A stretch of 57,135 nt of DNA from a virus. How positions within the stretch are numbered: the stretch's first letter is position 1; every line of letters begins with the position of its first letter. Below the pieces are notes generated by a model that was not told the origin of the DNA, did not search any database, and was given only the letters and a program-made list of their open reading frames with translations. This document shows, one piece after another, positions 46,688 to 57,135 of this stretch. A program made the translations under genes and the position numbers. Location: IMG/VR virus record IMGVR_UViG_3300035180_004116, positions 1 to 57,135 of that record. One strand, given 5' to 3'.

Positions 46688-48517
46688 ATGGCTACAACCA
46701 TTGACCCGTATGCAGCGGGTATTCTCCAGGTGATCCTCGACGCCTGGAACCAGAAGTCATACGAGGACCGGCGCAACAAACTCAAAGCCTGCATCACCGG
46801 CTTGGGCAAGGTCGTGCCGCTCACCTACGAGGCATTCGAAAAGCCCATCGTCGAAGCACTCTCGGCGTCTGGCACGACTGTCCCTAAAGCATTGCGGTCG
46901 TTCTGCGACCGCAACAACCGCCCCGAACTGCTGATGTGCATTGCCGGGTCGATCGCATTCGGTGCATTTGGCATCCACAACAGCGAACAGCTTGAATCGT
47001 CTATCTCCTGCCTGACAAGGGCCATCAAGGGGAGAGCGCCATGCGACAACGACCGTACCGGCAAGCCGATCTTCGGCCAGCCGATCAACACGAAGGGGTG
47101 GGCAAAGGCGATCGTCGATAAGATCGAAGTAGAGCTGACCCACCACACCCTCACCACCGGCCAACACATCGAAATCCCACCCGAGATGGGCGGTGCCATC
47201 ACCATCACCACTGTCGAACCAACAACGGAGACCAACGCCATGACCAATACCGCCACTGCCACGACCGAAGCCGTCATTGCTCCGGGCTTTGCCGACGCCA
47301 TCAACAGCCTGCTCAAGACCGCCACGGGCGGCAAGGTCGAGAGCATTACAGAAGTCCTCGAAAGCGTTGGCGTCCTGGCCAATGCCAACGACCGTCTGGC
47401 TGCTGCCACCAAGGCGGCGGAGGCCGAGATCATCAGCCTGAAGACCCGCCTCTCCACCGCTGCCGTGCCGACCACTGGTACGGTGGCCACGGTCGATGCC
47501 AAGACCCTGACCTACAGCGTCACGATGCAGCGAGCCGGCGACGTCTTCCTAGATCCCAAGGGCAAGCCGACCCCCGGCCTCGACATGATGATCCCGACCT
47601 TCACCTGGACCGATGACAGCGGCACGATCGTCGCCCATCCCAACGTGGCCACCCGCCACAGCGAAGGCGGCGAATTGGATGATCACTACCGCCCGGACAT
47701 CAAGATCCTGGTGAAGATGTTGCTCACTCTCTCGAACGGCAACAACGTCTGGGGCTACGGCATGCCTGGCACCGGTAAGACACAATGCGTCTACTACATC
47801 AGCCAGGTGCTTGGCTGGCCGGTGATCCGCGTCAACCTGGACAGCAGCATCGAGCCGTTCCAACTCATCGGCAGCACACAGATCATCAGCGATGGCGCGG
47901 GCGGCACCATCACCAAGTTCGTCGAGGGGATCATCCCGCAGGCTCTCCAGATGCCCTGCCTCATCCTCCTGGACGAGAACGACTACGGCAAATCGGAAGT
48001 GCTCTATGCCCTTCAGCGCCCGCTGGAAGGCCAGGGCAAGGGGATGATCCTGCCGGAGGATGGCGGCCGGGTGATCAAGCCGAACCCCTATGTCCGCTTC
48101 ATTGCCACCGGCAACACCCGTGGGCAGGGCGACGAGGTCGGCTGCTTCCCCGGCGTGCGGACGCAGTCCAGCGCCTACCTCAATCGCTTCACATCCTTCA
48201 TCGAGTTCAACTACATGGGCAAGGTACAGGAGAAGAAGCTGTTGCTTGATCAGGCACCAGGCCTGCCGGAAGACACCGCGGAAGCCCTCTCCATCTTCGC
48301 CCTGAAGGTGCGTGAAGCAGTGGTCAAGGGCGAGATCCTGTTCTTCGTGACGCCTCGTAACCTGATCCCCTGCGCCAAGTATGCGGTGCAGCTTACCCCA
48401 TCAGCAAGCTCTCCGAAGGAGGCTCTGCTGCTGGCGATGGAGATGACCATCTTCGACGCGGCCAGCAACATGGATCGGCAGAAGCTGCGCCAGATCGCCG
48501 ACGCCGTCTTCAAGTAA
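46688..48517 (+). CDS. MoxR/CobS-like AAA+ ATPase with extra N-terminal domain, 609 aa
   Basis: Residues 330-609 form a MoxR-type AAA+ module close to cobaltochelatase CobS: Walker A GMPGTGKT at 358-365, Walker B LILLDEND (Asp429, Glu430), sensor GNTRGQGDEVG. CobS itself is about 330 aa; here about 330 extra residues precede it. It is paired with the vWA protein downstream. MoxR/vWA pairs act as ATP-driven remodelling or metal-insertion chaperones. An in-frame ATG at 47240 carries the full start leader and would give a 425-aa protein. No cobalamin genes are present, so a B12 role is not supported. Confidence 0.82.
   Translation: MATTIDPYAAGILQVILDAWNQKSYEDRRNKLKACITGLGKVVPLTYEAFEKPIVEALSASGTTVPKALRSFCDRNNRPELLMCIAGSIAFGAFGIHNSEQLESSISCLTRAIKGRAPCDNDRTGKPIFGQPINTKGWAKAIVDKIEVELTHHTLTTGQHIEIPPEMGGAITITTVEPTTETNAMTNTATATTEAVIAPGFADAINSLLKTATGGKVESITEVLESVGVLANANDRLAAATKAAEAEIISLKTRLSTAAVPTTGTVATVDAKTLTYSVTMQRAGDVFLDPKGKPTPGLDMMIPTFTWTDDSGTIVAHPNVATRHSEGGELDDHYRPDIKILVKMLLTLSNGNNVWGYGMPGTGKTQCVYYISQVLGWPVIRVNLDSSIEPFQLIGSTQIISDGAGGTITKFVEGIIPQALQMPCLILLDENDYGKSEVLYALQRPLEGQGKGMILPEDGGRVIKPNPYVRFIATGNTRGQGDEVGCFPGVRTQSSAYLNRFTSFIEFNYMGKVQEKKLLLDQAPGLPEDTAEALSIFALKVREAVVKGEILFFVTPRNLIPCAKYAVQLTPSASSPKEALLLAMEMTIFDAASNMDRQKLRQIADAVFK
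47223..47242 (+). promoter_or_regulatory. Internal start leader inside the AAA+ gene
   Basis: ACGGAGACCAACGCC immediately before an in-frame ATG at 47240. The leader matches the one used at the true starts of neighbouring genes, which suggests a second translation product (residues 185-609) or an old gene boundary. Confidence 0.55.
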
Positions 48518-48564
48518 ATCACGCAGAAAGTAAATCACGCAGACGCCGCCCCTTCGGGGGCGGC
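48512..48564 (+). repeat. Tandem 16-bp repeat and UUCG hairpin
   Basis: AAGTAAATCACGCAGA occurs twice in direct tandem (48512-48527, 48528-48543); the first copy contains the AAA+ gene stop codon. It is followed by GCCGCCCC, loop TTCG, GGGGCGGC (48545-48564), a very stable hairpin with no T-run, before the leader of the vWA gene. Confidence 0.65.
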
Positions 48565-48584
48565 ATAACATATGGAGAACGACG

Positions 48585-50570
48585 ATGATTGAAGGAACAC
48601 TCGCCCGTGAATATGAAGCTGGCTTGGCATCGACCATCAGGGTCCTTGCCGAGAAGTACAACGTCACTGTCCAGTTCGTTGGGCAGGCGATGGAAGCCAA
48701 GACCAGCAGCAACAACGTCATCCTCCCCAAGCTGCCCGATGACACCATCATCAGTGCGGCCGATGGCGAGATCATCAGTGGCTTCGGTCTGCATGAGATG
48801 GGCCACCAGATCATGACGGACATGAAGTATGGCGAAGAGTGGTTCAAGAAGAATTCACAGCGCGCCCGCTACCTGGCCAACGCACTGGAAGATGTCCGGC
48901 TGGAACGGGCGATCACCGAGATCCTGCCCGGCACCAAGCAGAAGATCGAGGCCACCGTCAACAAGGTGGCCGAGCATACCCTGTCCCAGATCAGACCGGG
49001 CGATTTAAAGGATATCAACAAGATCGGTCCGATCGCGATCACCTGGATGGGCCGCAAACGTCTGGGCTATGAGAGCGAGTATCTCGATAAGTGTTTGGAT
49101 GCCCTGCCCAAGGACATCAAGGACAGGATCAATCCCTGGCTCGACAAGCTGTGGGATATACCGACGGGAGTAAAGGGACTGGCGACCGTCGATCAGGCTG
49201 TTGCCTATCAGGGCAGCCGCCGAGTCATGGAGATGGCCAGCGAGTTCGAGAAGGAGGAGAAGAAGGAGAACAAGGGCAAGGGCGGCGGTGCTCCGGCCCC
49301 AGGAAAAGGCGGTGCGCCGGGCGGTACTGGTGCTGGACCAGATGGCAAGGGCCTGCCCGAACAGACGCTAGAGCAAGAGATTCTGGACACCATGGACCGG
49401 GGCAAGGGTGACGATACGGAAGAGGGGCATGAGGTGATCGACCCCAACCTGTCCAGCACGGTTAACCAGCTTGTCAATAAGCTTACCAAGGGCGCCGTCA
49501 CCGGCATGGGCGCCTTCCATGGCTACCGTCCATTCACCACAGCCTGGGATACCTGGAATGATCGGCACATGACCAATCCGTGGGTGCCGGGCGGGTGCCT
49601 TGCCTTTAGGCGCATCAAGCACTCCGATGGCCAAGCCATGTACACAGACCTCTCAGGCAAGCTGCGGGGAACCATCTCGGTGATGCGCCGCAAGTTCGAG
49701 CGGTTGGTCGTCAGTCTAAACACGGCCGACTACGAGGGTGGCAAGCGCAATGGACGTCTGCATACACCACGTCTGAGCCGGGTGATGGTCGGTCATACGG
49801 ATGTGTTCAGGCACCGGGTCGAAGGCAAGCGCGTCAACACGGCGGCCACCCTGCTGGTGGATCTGAGCGGGTCGATGAATGGCGGGGTGCAGGACGACCA
49901 TGTTATTGGACTTCGGGTCAGCAAGGTGAAGATGGCGCAGCTTGCGGCCATCGCCTTGGCTGAGACGCTAGAGAATTGCGGCGTGGCGGTCGAGGTGTTG
50001 GGGTTCAATGCCACCGGTACTCATGACCCGTCGTGGTCGCAGGCAATAAACGCTGCCTGCGCGGCAGACGCCAACCTCCGCCTTAAGTTCGATCGGTTTG
50101 CACCGGTCGATATGCACATCTTCAAGGCGTTCGATGAGAGTGTAAGACAGGCGCAGACGGCGCTCGGCAATATTGCCAGGTGCGTTGATGGCAACAACCC
50201 GGACGGGGAGTCTATCCTGTATGCGGCTGACCGTCTGTTGAAGAGGGAGGAGCCGAAGAAGATCCTCATGGTCCTGAGCGATGGTCAGCCGGCTTACAAT
50301 CATGGCCACATGACCAACGTGCATCAGCACACAAGGGACTGTGTGCAGTGGTGCATCCAACAGAAGATCCACACGGTTGGCATCGGCATCATGAGCGATG
50401 CGGTGCAGCAATACTACCCGAAGTATGTGGTGCTCAAATCCATCTCCGAACTGCCTGGTCAGGTGATGGAGCAGATCAGCTCGCTGATCCTGGGTGACCG
50501 GGTGATCCTCGATAACTCCAAACTTCTTGCCAGCAATGTCCAGCAAGCCAAAGCGGCGCGGCCCGCCTAA
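48585..50570 (+). CDS. CobT-like vWA protein with N-terminal HExxH, 661 aa
   Basis: The C-terminal half is a von Willebrand A domain with MIDAS DLSGSMNG (Asp426, Ser428, Ser430), a later NPDGESILYAADRLL and MVLSDGQPAYN. The N-terminal part has GLHEMGHQIMTD (His70, Glu71, His74) and NALEDVRLE with Glu102/Asp103, the pattern of a putative zinc metallopeptidase before vWA. A charged linker (KEEKKENKGKGGGAPAPGKGG) joins them. Aerobic cobaltochelatase CobT has a related vWA end. The pair with the AAA+ gene is the standard MoxR/vWA arrangement. Its substrate is unknown. Confidence 0.82.
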   Translation: MIEGTLAREYEAGLASTIRVLAEKYNVTVQFVGQAMEAKTSSNNVILPKLPDDTIISAADGEIISGFGLHEMGHQIMTDMKYGEEWFKKNSQRARYLANALEDVRLERAITEILPGTKQKIEATVNKVAEHTLSQIRPGDLKDINKIGPIAITWMGRKRLGYESEYLDKCLDALPKDIKDRINPWLDKLWDIPTGVKGLATVDQAVAYQGSRRVMEMASEFEKEEKKENKGKGGGAPAPGKGGAPGGTGAGPDGKGLPEQTLEQEILDTMDRGKGDDTEEGHEVIDPNLSSTVNQLVNKLTKGAVTGMGAFHGYRPFTTAWDTWNDRHMTNPWVPGGCLAFRRIKHSDGQAMYTDLSGKLRGTISVMRRKFERLVVSLNTADYEGGKRNGRLHTPRLSRVMVGHTDVFRHRVEGKRVNTAATLLVDLSGSMNGGVQDDHVIGLRVSKVKMAQLAAIALAETLENCGVAVEVLGFNATGTHDPSWSQAINAACAADANLRLKFDRFAPVDMHIFKAFDESVRQAQTALGNIARCVDGNNPDGESILYAADRLLKREEPKKILMVLSDGQPAYNHGHMTNVHQHTRDCVQWCIQQKIHTVGIGIMSDAVQQYYPKYVVLKSISELPGQVMEQISSLILGDRVILDNSKLLASNVQQAKAARPA

Positions 50571-55327: not shown

Positions 55328-55488
55328 ATGGCAACAATTTGAAGCAGTTGGTGAAGGAATATCCACCACCGACCAAAGTGGTGGATGGAGTAAATCTTAA
55401 AATACTTGCGGGGGTTGGGGAAGAGTATCATATTGGTGGCAACCCAGACAACTTTGGGCCAACAACGATACGGATACGGTCACAATGA
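55328..55488 (+). pseudogene. Probable frameshifted small gene
   Basis: The ATG at 55328 has the full leader ACACGGAGACC but reads only MATI before a stop. Adding one T to the TTT at 55338-55340 joins it to an open frame LKQLVKEYPPPTKVVDG, ending GPTTIRIRSQ and overlapping the LuxR-like gene by ATGA. The restored protein would have about 53 residues. A shortened homopolymer in life or in sequencing would explain it. Confidence 0.5.
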
Positions 55489-56015
55489 AAAAACCGACAG
55501 GTAAGGGCCGGTCAGGCCCCAATGGCGACAAGCCTGAAGTCAGCGACAAAGAGAGGATAGCGTACTTAGAGGGACGTCTAAGTGCGCTTGAGAGCTTTGT
55601 GCAGGCGGGATTGATTGGGGGTCAGACGCAGCAGAGAACACAGGGATCTGCGGTCGGATTGTCGAGCGATGTCGTTAGGCTGCATGAGCAGATTTTGGAT
55701 GGGGCGTTTGGTCGGATGACGATCAAGCAGCATGCTGCTTATCAATTGGTCATGGCGGGAAAGAGCAATAGAGAAATTGCGGACGTGCTGCATGTGAGTG
55801 AGAGCACGGCGAAGACCTATGTGTACAGGTTGATGAAGCACTTTGAAGTGAACAATAGAGCGCAGCTCATGTTGAAGACGAAGTCGCATTGGGATGCACT
55901 GGATGCTGGCAAGTATCAGAGCATTGCGGGACTGAGGAAGGACTGGGCAAATTCGATTAGGGAGGATGAGCCGGTGCTGGGGATGTTGCGGAGCAGGAGA
56001 GGTGACGATGAGTGA
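55485..56015 (+). CDS. LuxR-type (GerE) HTH regulator, 176 aa
   Basis: Residues about 82-135 form a LuxR C-terminal HTH: LTI-like MTIKQHAAYQLVMAGKSN, REIADVLHVSESTAKTYVYR, LMKHFEVNNRAQLM. The N-terminal 40 residues are a coiled coil (ERIAYLEGRLSALESFVQ), with no autoinducer-binding or receiver domain. It sits next to the integrase and overlaps it by 8 nt, so it may control integration or right-arm genes. Starts at an ATGA overlap. Confidence 0.82.
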   Translation: MKKPTGKGRSGPNGDKPEVSDKERIAYLEGRLSALESFVQAGLIGGQTQQRTQGSAVGLSSDVVRLHEQILDGAFGRMTIKQHAAYQLVMAGKSNREIADVLHVSESTAKTYVYRLMKHFEVNNRAQLMLKTKSHWDALDAGKYQSIAGLRKDWANSIREDEPVLGMLRSRRGDDE

Positions 56016-57135
56016 CCTGAAGTTGAAGGTTGTGGATGGGGTGTATCACGTCCACGGAACCTTCATGGGTCAGAGGGTGAGGAAGAGTTTGAAGGTGCCG
56101 AAGGGGCCGGGCATGAAGGCGCTCGCCGAGGCGGAGGTACGGGATATCAAGAAGGAGATCATGGAGGGCGTGAGCAGGGGACCGGTCGCTCATGGCAAGA
56201 CGATGGTCGATGTTTGGTACGGGTATATGGAGTGGCGGAAAAGTCAGGGAAGGTTACAGCATCAGCAAGAGCGCGAGATGATGAACCAGATGGACTGGTG
56301 GGGAACGACGGCGGTGGCCAAGGTCACGACGTCGAAGATCATGGAGTGGGTGAAAGAGCAGAGGGTCAAGCCGGGTACGACGAAGCGACGGCTCAATGAT
56401 TTGAGTGCGGCGCTGAACTTGGCAAAGAGCATGGGGTGGATCAGGGATGTGCCGGAGATCCCGCGGCCGAAGGTCGATGATGCGAGGGACCGGTATCTGA
56501 ATATTGAGCAGATTGATCAGTTGTGGGCCGACTTCGAGAAGGAGAAGGTCGGGGTCAATCTTGGGTTATTGGTGGATGCTGGGCCACGTCTGAGTGAGGC
56601 GGTGGCCGTGCGGTGGGCAGACGTTGATCTTAAGGCGGGCGAGGTGACGATCAGGAGGAAGGTCAATGGGAAGCCACGGACTCGGAGTATCAAGCTGAGC
56701 GATAGGTTGTGGGTGGCGCTGGAGTGGGCCAAGGAGCAGGGCTGGAAGGTGCCGTTCGGGAATGCGGCAGGGGAACCCTTCAAGGACCGGTGGGAGGTGC
56801 AGGACTATGTGACCAAGGCGCTAGATGGCTGGCTTGAGAAGTATGGGATTGATGATTTTAGGTTGCATGACCTGAGGCATACCTTTGCGTTTCAGGCTGG
56901 TCACCATGGGGTGGACTTGGGCGATCTGATGGTGCTCATGGGGCATACGAATATCAGCATGACGATGCGGTATAGGGGGTTCATTAAGAGCAGGGCGCAG
57001 GTTGTCATTGGTGGATTTGGGAAAAGTGGGCAGGAAATTGGCAGGAAATTGACAAGTGAGGTTGTGGCTGAGGGCCGGAATTCTACCAGCGAGCGTGGCG
57101 AGTTGGTAGAAAATGATGATGAATCAATGATTTGA
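56008..57135 (+). CDS. int: Tyrosine integrase
   Basis: 375 residues. N-terminal arm-binding part to about 65, SAM-like core-binding domain at about 65-150, then the catalytic domain with Arg194 (GPRLSEA), HDLR with His287 and Arg290, His313 (MGHTN) and Tyr322 (MRYRGF). It inserts phage DNA into the host chromosome by recombining attP and attB. GGAGAGG precedes the ATG at 56008. The gene ends exactly at the window edge, so attP may lie just beyond. Confidence 0.92.
   Translation: MSDLKLKVVDGVYHVHGTFMGQRVRKSLKVPKGPGMKALAEAEVRDIKKEIMEGVSRGPVAHGKTMVDVWYGYMEWRKSQGRLQHQQEREMMNQMDWWGTTAVAKVTTSKIMEWVKEQRVKPGTTKRRLNDLSAALNLAKSMGWIRDVPEIPRPKVDDARDRYLNIEQIDQLWADFEKEKVGVNLGLLVDAGPRLSEAVAVRWADVDLKAGEVTIRRKVNGKPRTRSIKLSDRLWVALEWAKEQGWKVPFGNAAGEPFKDRWEVQDYVTKALDGWLEKYGIDDFRLHDLRHTFAFQAGHHGVDLGDLMVLMGHTNISMTMRYRGFIKSRAQVVIGGFGKSGQEIGRKLTSEVVAEGRNSTSERGELVENDDESMI
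57029..57050 (+). repeat. Tandem 11-bp repeat in the integrase 3' end
   Basis: GGCAGGAAATT occurs twice in tandem, encoding a Gly-Gln-Glu-Ile-Gly-Arg-Lys-Leu stretch. The same word with one change is at 42771-42787. A possible integrase arm site or attachment-related repeat. Confidence 0.45.

Follow-up and report, generated by a model that had tools for sequence, protein, structure and literature searches.

Organization of the locus

The window, i.e. the whole 57,135-base viral record IMGVR_UViG_3300035180_004116, carries a gene for a CobS/MoxR-like AAA+ ATPase and, 67 bp downstream on the same strand, a gene for a CobT-like protein in which a zincin-like N-domain is combined with a vWA domain (Table 1). 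Each gene is preceded by a GGAG-type Shine-Dalgarno sequence, and both lie where the initial annotation had placed them.

Table 1. Positions of the two genes, their motifs and the context genes in the window.
Feature	Coordinates	Strand	Remark
CobS/MoxR-like AAA+ ATPase, 609 aa	46688..48517	+	AAA core ~318-609; divergent N-terminal half 1-~280
Walker A, G358..K364-T365	47759..47782	+	G358, G361, G363 and K364 invariant in the alignment of 17 homologues
Walker B, D429-E430	47972..47977	+	invariant in the alignment of 17 homologues
Hairpin GCCGCCCC-TTCG-GGGGCGGC	48545..48564	+	between both genes; no T-run following
CobT-like protein, 661 aa	48585..50570	+	zincin-like N-domain 1-~235, acidic/Gly linker, vWA-MIDAS ~356-640
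HExxH, HEMGH, residues 70-74	48792..48806	+	conservation given in the text
E102-D103-x-x-x-E107-R108 helix	48888..48908	+	putative third metal ligand
MIDAS DxSxS, DLSGS, residues 426-430	49860..49874	+	conservation given in the text
LuxR/GerE-type regulator	55485..56015	+	context gene; order as in CRP-810
Tyrosine integrase	55966..57135	+	context gene

The ATPase matches AAA_5 (Pfam, 3e-12), PHROG 249 ('porphyrin biosynthesis') and CobS (4.5e-36, 124.7 bits). All catalytic elements are present; besides the Walker motifs, N476 and R500 are invariant among the 17 homologues. NorQ and CbbQ are the best structural matches of the ATPase model, and the alignments to PDB entries are confined to the AAA core. 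The extra N-terminal half that had been pointed out earlier is real: genuine CobS measures about 330 aa in total and lacks this half, whereas the window ATPase has about 280 aa more. The half is weakly conserved up to about residue 260–280, with no conserved motif in the 17-homologue alignment, and most of it is modelled with pLDDT below 50.

The partner matches the CobT_C vWA family (3e-30) and PHROG 1576, and its match to the CobT profile is full-length, spanning residues 12–635 (1.1e-31, about 110 bits). As the initial annotation had read from the letters, it carries both an HExxH and a MIDAS motif. The columns of both motifs are among the most conserved in an alignment of 63 homologues, and therefore the motifs are not chance occurrences. 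In the same alignment, D69, H70, E71, H74, E102, D103 and E107 account for 7 of the 14 most conserved columns of the N-domain; E102, D103 and E107 are near-invariant in one alignment and invariant in another. An AlphaFold model of the partner based on 63 sequences (mean pLDDT 85) places the HExxH in a helix of residues 58–77 and E102, together with D103 and E107, on a helix of residues 92–113. H70, E71 and H74 thus have the helical setting and the conservation of a zincin-type site. The window protein itself reads L at the column of D69.

The vWA domain of the model matches the MIDAS domain of Rea1/Midasin (Z 22) and NorD (Z 21), with overall Z of 20–22. The whole-model Foldseek and VIA matches fall mainly on residues 359–639, which correspond to the vWA domain. 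With adjacent genes, intact Walker A and B motifs and a MIDAS DxSxS, the two proteins have the composition of a MoxR/AAA_5 ATPase with its vWA partner.

Host phage group and gene neighborhood

The window belongs to a CRP-810-type phage. Among the proteins of Roseobacter phage CRP-810, 24 have a match in the window ORFs, and the circular gene order is shared, with scores of 963 bits for the portal, 582 for TerL, 456 for the capsid and 417 for the primase-polymerase, and this synteny places the window in the CRP-810-type family. In CRP-810-type genomes the ATPase gene precedes the CobT-like gene, followed in most of them by the LuxR-type regulator and the integrase. The pair thus belongs to a temperate phage, as the initial annotation had read it, beside a LuxR-type regulator and an integrase gene. 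The CRP-810 paper describes 251 related viral genomes with clustered cobS and cobT in nearly all (PMC11288001); it leaves the function of the two genes open. The near-universal presence of the pair in the group indicates a core trait of temperate phages of this type rather than a rare accessory, so that the term 'accessory' used in the initial annotation is doubtful. The name 'cobavirus', for its part, derives from a cobalamin-dependent RNR and not from cobS/T (PMC6775973).

The same prevalence bears on the suggestion, made with the initial annotation, that the pair acts in host takeover, defence or counter-defence. A protease that removes a host protein could consist of an AAA+ ATPase with a protease partner, and phage zincins targeting host proteins have been proposed before (PMC7824862). 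However, a gene pair that is near-universal in its phage group (PMC11288001) and syntenic with replication genes in relatives is unlike a variable accessory weapon, and the defence-family match is limited to a generic AAA match to IetA. We regard such a takeover or counter-defence protease as very unlikely, and a defence or counter-defence role has found no positive support. A search with PADLOC for a defence system gave generic AAA matches only (IetA, 4.6e-7). The anti-CRISPR AcrIIA26 was also considered and rejected: the profile match is weak (E 1.8e-4) and covers only the acidic NxxED helix. No structure similar to AcrIIA26 is reported by its authors (PMC13089141).

Two arrangements of the pair occur in the relatives: ATPase-CobT in the CRP-810-type phages and CobT-ATPase in most others. 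In the latter the pair lies inside a replication operon, with ligase and primase genes upstream, often a sigma-like gene, and then the gene for DNA polymerase III alpha (DnaE). At 42 of the 43 CobT-CobS-ordered loci with at least 5 kb of sequence after the ATPase gene, dnaE starts on the same strand no more than 5 kb downstream of the ATPase gene. The DnaE proteins of these loci form 10 clusters at 50% identity, with a median pairwise identity of 43.5%; the synteny thus does not stem from one recent clone, even though shared ancestry still inflates the count. Elsewhere the pair is found with replication or recombination genes of other kinds: beside primase, DnaB and PolA in ICP2, beside a polymerase and a primase-helicase in phage T5S1, and beside gp46/47, the clamp and the clamp loader in cyanophage P-RSM1. 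A tblastn search with the window ATPase found a relative in 532 phage records, mostly from cyanophages. The relatives were reached by profile and protein searches only: searching phages at the nucleotide level with the pair gave no match, and no relative was found in a single-sequence scan of IMG/VR.

The neighbors of the pair in the window and in CRP-810 are terL on one side and the integrase gene on the other, not the replication genes. The link to replication comes from the gene neighborhoods of the relatives and not from that of the window. The position in the window recalls another proposal. For the pair of jumbo phages, which has the same domain architecture, Iyer et al. (2021) proposed a role in virion assembly, as a chaperone with a protease for the maturation of structural proteins (PMC7824862), and the window pair could act likewise. 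In CRP-810-type genomes the pair does flank head-packaging genes, with terL upstream on the opposite strand. Nevertheless, the main structural block is on the strand opposite to the pair in the window, CRP-810 and HVTV-1, and relatives hold the pair co-directionally in replication rather than structural operons. A role in virion assembly is thus, in our judgment, rather unlikely.

Relationship to cobaltochelatase

By the curated NCBI models, the window pair is not a bona fide CobS/CobT. The ATPase scores 124.7 bits against an equivalog cut-off of 558.55 bits for CobS (TIGR01650), and the partner 110.2 bits against 759.05 bits for CobT (TIGR01651). By comparison, matches above the CobT cut-off occur in 77 of 142 alphaproteobacterial genomes.

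The HExxH site separates the viral proteins from the cellular ones. Of 70 full-length viral homologues, 62 retain the motif, and all 70 have the MIDAS. The viral loci were retrieved with patterns of the vWA domain only, so the HExxH was not selected for. Among cellular CobT and CobT-like proteins, taken from loci found in genome searches together with one annotated cobS-cobT pair, the HExxH occurs in 0 of 37, and [SA]xALR or a similar sequence stands in its place. For instance, the solved CobT 9uka_G has GDSMALR at these columns. In addition to the 62 viral proteins, halovirus HVTV-1, a druskavirus of the kind underlying the viral-cobST idea, retains HECGH...NAAEDGAIER. The initial annotation had held that loss of catalytic residues across homologues would speak against its reading. 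Such loss is real, yet it is confined to 8 of the 70 viral proteins (e.g. SEISK in nickie and REVST in Stenotrophomonas), and it implies that proteolysis is dispensable in some members.

Even with the vWA domain set aside, the N-domains of viral and cellular CobT are homologous (hhalign probability 94.5%, E 7.8e-8), and hence the two kinds differ in the site and not in the domain. In a tree of the vWA domain only, the cellular CobT clade without HExxH (SH-aLRT 99%) lies among HExxH-bearing viral and cellular lineages. The root of this tree is not fixed; its topology suggests that the protease site was lost in cellular CobT.

According to Liu et al. (2021), who describe a cobST cluster in many tailed viruses, viral CobS and CobT are cobaltochelatase subunits encoded by auxiliary metabolic genes; they would hijack the CobN of the host and raise cobalamin for class II ribonucleotide reductase (PMC8651126). 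The full-length homology to CobS and CobT fits this proposal, as do the presence of CobN in 5 of 10 cellular genomes tested and one RNR above the NrdJ cut-off in the record of phage T5S1. Set against it are the scores of both window proteins, far under the equivalog cut-offs, and the retention of a zincin site that genuine CobT lacks. CobN was found neither in the window, as had been noted earlier, nor in 44 other viral records (0/45), so that a linked CobN did not turn up in the relatives either. It was also not found in the other 5 of the 10 cellular genomes holding a relative, including Buttiauxella and Kluyvera, where two of the five are MAGs that may be incomplete, the Kistimonas homologue is without HExxH and the Kluyvera homologue is a fragment. 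An E. coli control genome likewise gave no CobN, and plasmids of the SSU5 type that bear the pair occur commonly in Escherichia and Klebsiella. Since several hosts and the E. coli control gave no CobN, the use of host CobN by viral CobST cannot be general.

Searches for NrdJ gave no match in the window, CRP-810 and ICP2. A link to B12-dependent RNR was pursued in the relatives as well and rejected; the TIGR02504 matches are mostly below the cut-off and E. coli is positive with the same model, and thus class II enzymes are not identified by them. Taken together, we find the cobalamin proposal quite unlikely for this pair, and the label 'cobaltochelatase' is probably wrong.

Proposed mechanism and implications

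The reading that we favor, and hold to be reasonably probable, is that the AAA+ ATPase and its zincin-vWA partner form a ring-driven module for remodelling or proteolysis, with relatives linked to replication, that is related to yet distinct from CobS/CobT. The HExxH is intact here and absent from the true B12 enzyme, which makes an ATP-driven remodelling or cutting machine likelier than a vitamin enzyme. In NorQ-NorD, CbbQ-CbbO and Midasin, a substrate is remodelled by an AAA_5 ring acting jointly with a vWA partner that has a MIDAS, and in Rea1 it is the MIDAS domain that docks UBL domains. By analogy, the CobS-like protein would assemble into a ring of the NorQ/CbbQ/MoxR type, and the vWA/MIDAS domain would dock a substrate protein onto this ring in the way that Rea1 docks UBL domains. 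ATP hydrolysis would then pull or remodel the docked substrate, while the N-terminal HExxH domain may cleave it or may employ its bound metal in remodelling. Metal binding and proteolysis by the predicted zincin domain are proposed from its sequence. Judging from the replication neighborhood in relatives, the substrate could be DNA-bound or replisome proteins.

A broader version of this reading, which we put forward as a tentative and rather improbable possibility, is that viral 'CobST' is misnamed and is in truth a widespread metalloprotease or remodeller, powered by an AAA+ ATPase, that acts on the replication apparatus of viruses and clears or matures DNA-bound proteins at the replisome, and that cellular CobT is a relative whose protease site was lost on recruitment to B12 synthesis.

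In viral surveys, cobS and cobT are counted among the auxiliary metabolic genes for vitamin B12. Should the CobT-like partner prove to be a metallopeptidase-vWA protein instead of a chelatase subunit, such annotations would have to be revised, together with the ecological claims built on them. The HExxH versus [SA]xALR difference offers a one-site test to separate the viral and the cellular kinds, and the conserved place next to replicative polymerases suggests a concrete function for testing.

Comparison with known systems

The initial annotation had supposed that the pair might be undescribed. The pair is in fact already known: a 2021 paper described its architecture from jumbo phages (PMC7824862), and it appeared under other names in 2021 (PMC8651126) and 2024 (PMC11288001). 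What is new is that the HExxH is kept in viral and absent from cellular CobT, that the pair falls below the equivalog cut-offs with no CobN, and that relatives share a synteny with DNA polymerase III alpha. In the open-access literature, as far as its text was available, no statement was found that these pairs are one family, that a zincin site separates viral from cellular CobT, or that relatives lie in replication operons.

The closest counterpart is the gp06/gp07 pair of CRP-810 (OR671924), which has the same CobS-CobT...LuxR-integrase order, the long N-terminus of the ATPase, the HExxH and the MIDAS. Sequence identity of the window CobT is nevertheless only about 32%, and it branches separately within the CRP-810 group; the GC content is 60% in the window versus 53%, and a homologue of endonuclease V was not found. 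The group 2.2 jumbo phages, likened to the window by the published description (ASV44729/ASV44728), also combine a MoxR ATPase with a vWA protein whose N-terminal part is a metallopeptidase (Iyer et al. 2021, PMC7824862). Similarly, the viral cobST cluster, e.g. that of HVTV-1, has an AAA+ gene followed by a vWA protein gene as in the window (Liu et al. 2021, PMC8651126). The cobT of cyanophages was termed by the same authors 'mistakenly annotated as a peptidase', and the available part of their text was found to hold no mention of the HExxH site.

Among cellular systems, NorQ-NorD, CbbQ-CbbO and Midasin/Rea1 resemble the window pair in joining an AAA_5/MoxR ATPase with a MIDAS vWA protein and provide the best structural matches, which extend over the AAA core and over the vWA domain but not over the HExxH-bearing N-domain. 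The CobS/CobT of Alphaproteobacteria (Rhizobium NLR16a L129; PDB 9uka) share with the window full-length homology, the MIDAS vWA domain and the adjacency of cobS and cobT, and genuine CobT differs in having [SA]xALR instead of the HExxH of the window protein.

Relatives of the pair and of its N-domain

The HExxH motif is kept in three cellular CobT_C/vWA proteins, as HESGH in L110 (Clostridiales), HEVQH in L112 (Bacillota) and HESAH in L116 (Desulforudis); the only Pfam match on them is to the vWA domain. These proteins are cellular relatives of the viral HExxH-bearing kind. The pairs of an Oceanospirillales MAG (L094) and of Kistimonas (L095) lie near the kind carried by Roseobacter phage CRP-810 and likewise have the long ATPase, but their HExxH site is degraded to HATGR and the MIDAS reads DLSTS. 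A CRP-810-like primase-polymerase is found near the pair in Kistimonas. In halovirus HVTV-1, the gene for a SprT-like protein precedes the AAA/vWA-zincin pair, lying some 2 kb upstream.

The phage N-domain profile A5 matched the anti-CRISPR AcrIIA26 (PDB 9zq6_B; E 1.8e-4) over the NxxED...E helix only, a match that may reflect composition or a distant relation.

Sequence features of the window

The intergenic hairpin (fold z = -2.1) may act in stabilising or processing the mRNA. The ATPase stop codon is spanned by two perfect tandem copies of AAGTAAATCACGCAGA.

Coordinates of the features discussed
Feature	Position	Description
16-bp tandem repeat	window 48512-48543	end of ATPase gene
UUCG-tetraloop hairpin	window 48545-48564	between ATPase and CobT-like genes; strong 8-bp stem, without T-run
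3714-aa ORF	window 9935-21079	matches CRP-810 gp34, gp35, gp36 (internal virion protein)
SprT-like gene	L179 31534-32250	HVTV-1

The 3714-aa ORF occupies a single frame in the window, whereas CRP-810 has three separate genes.
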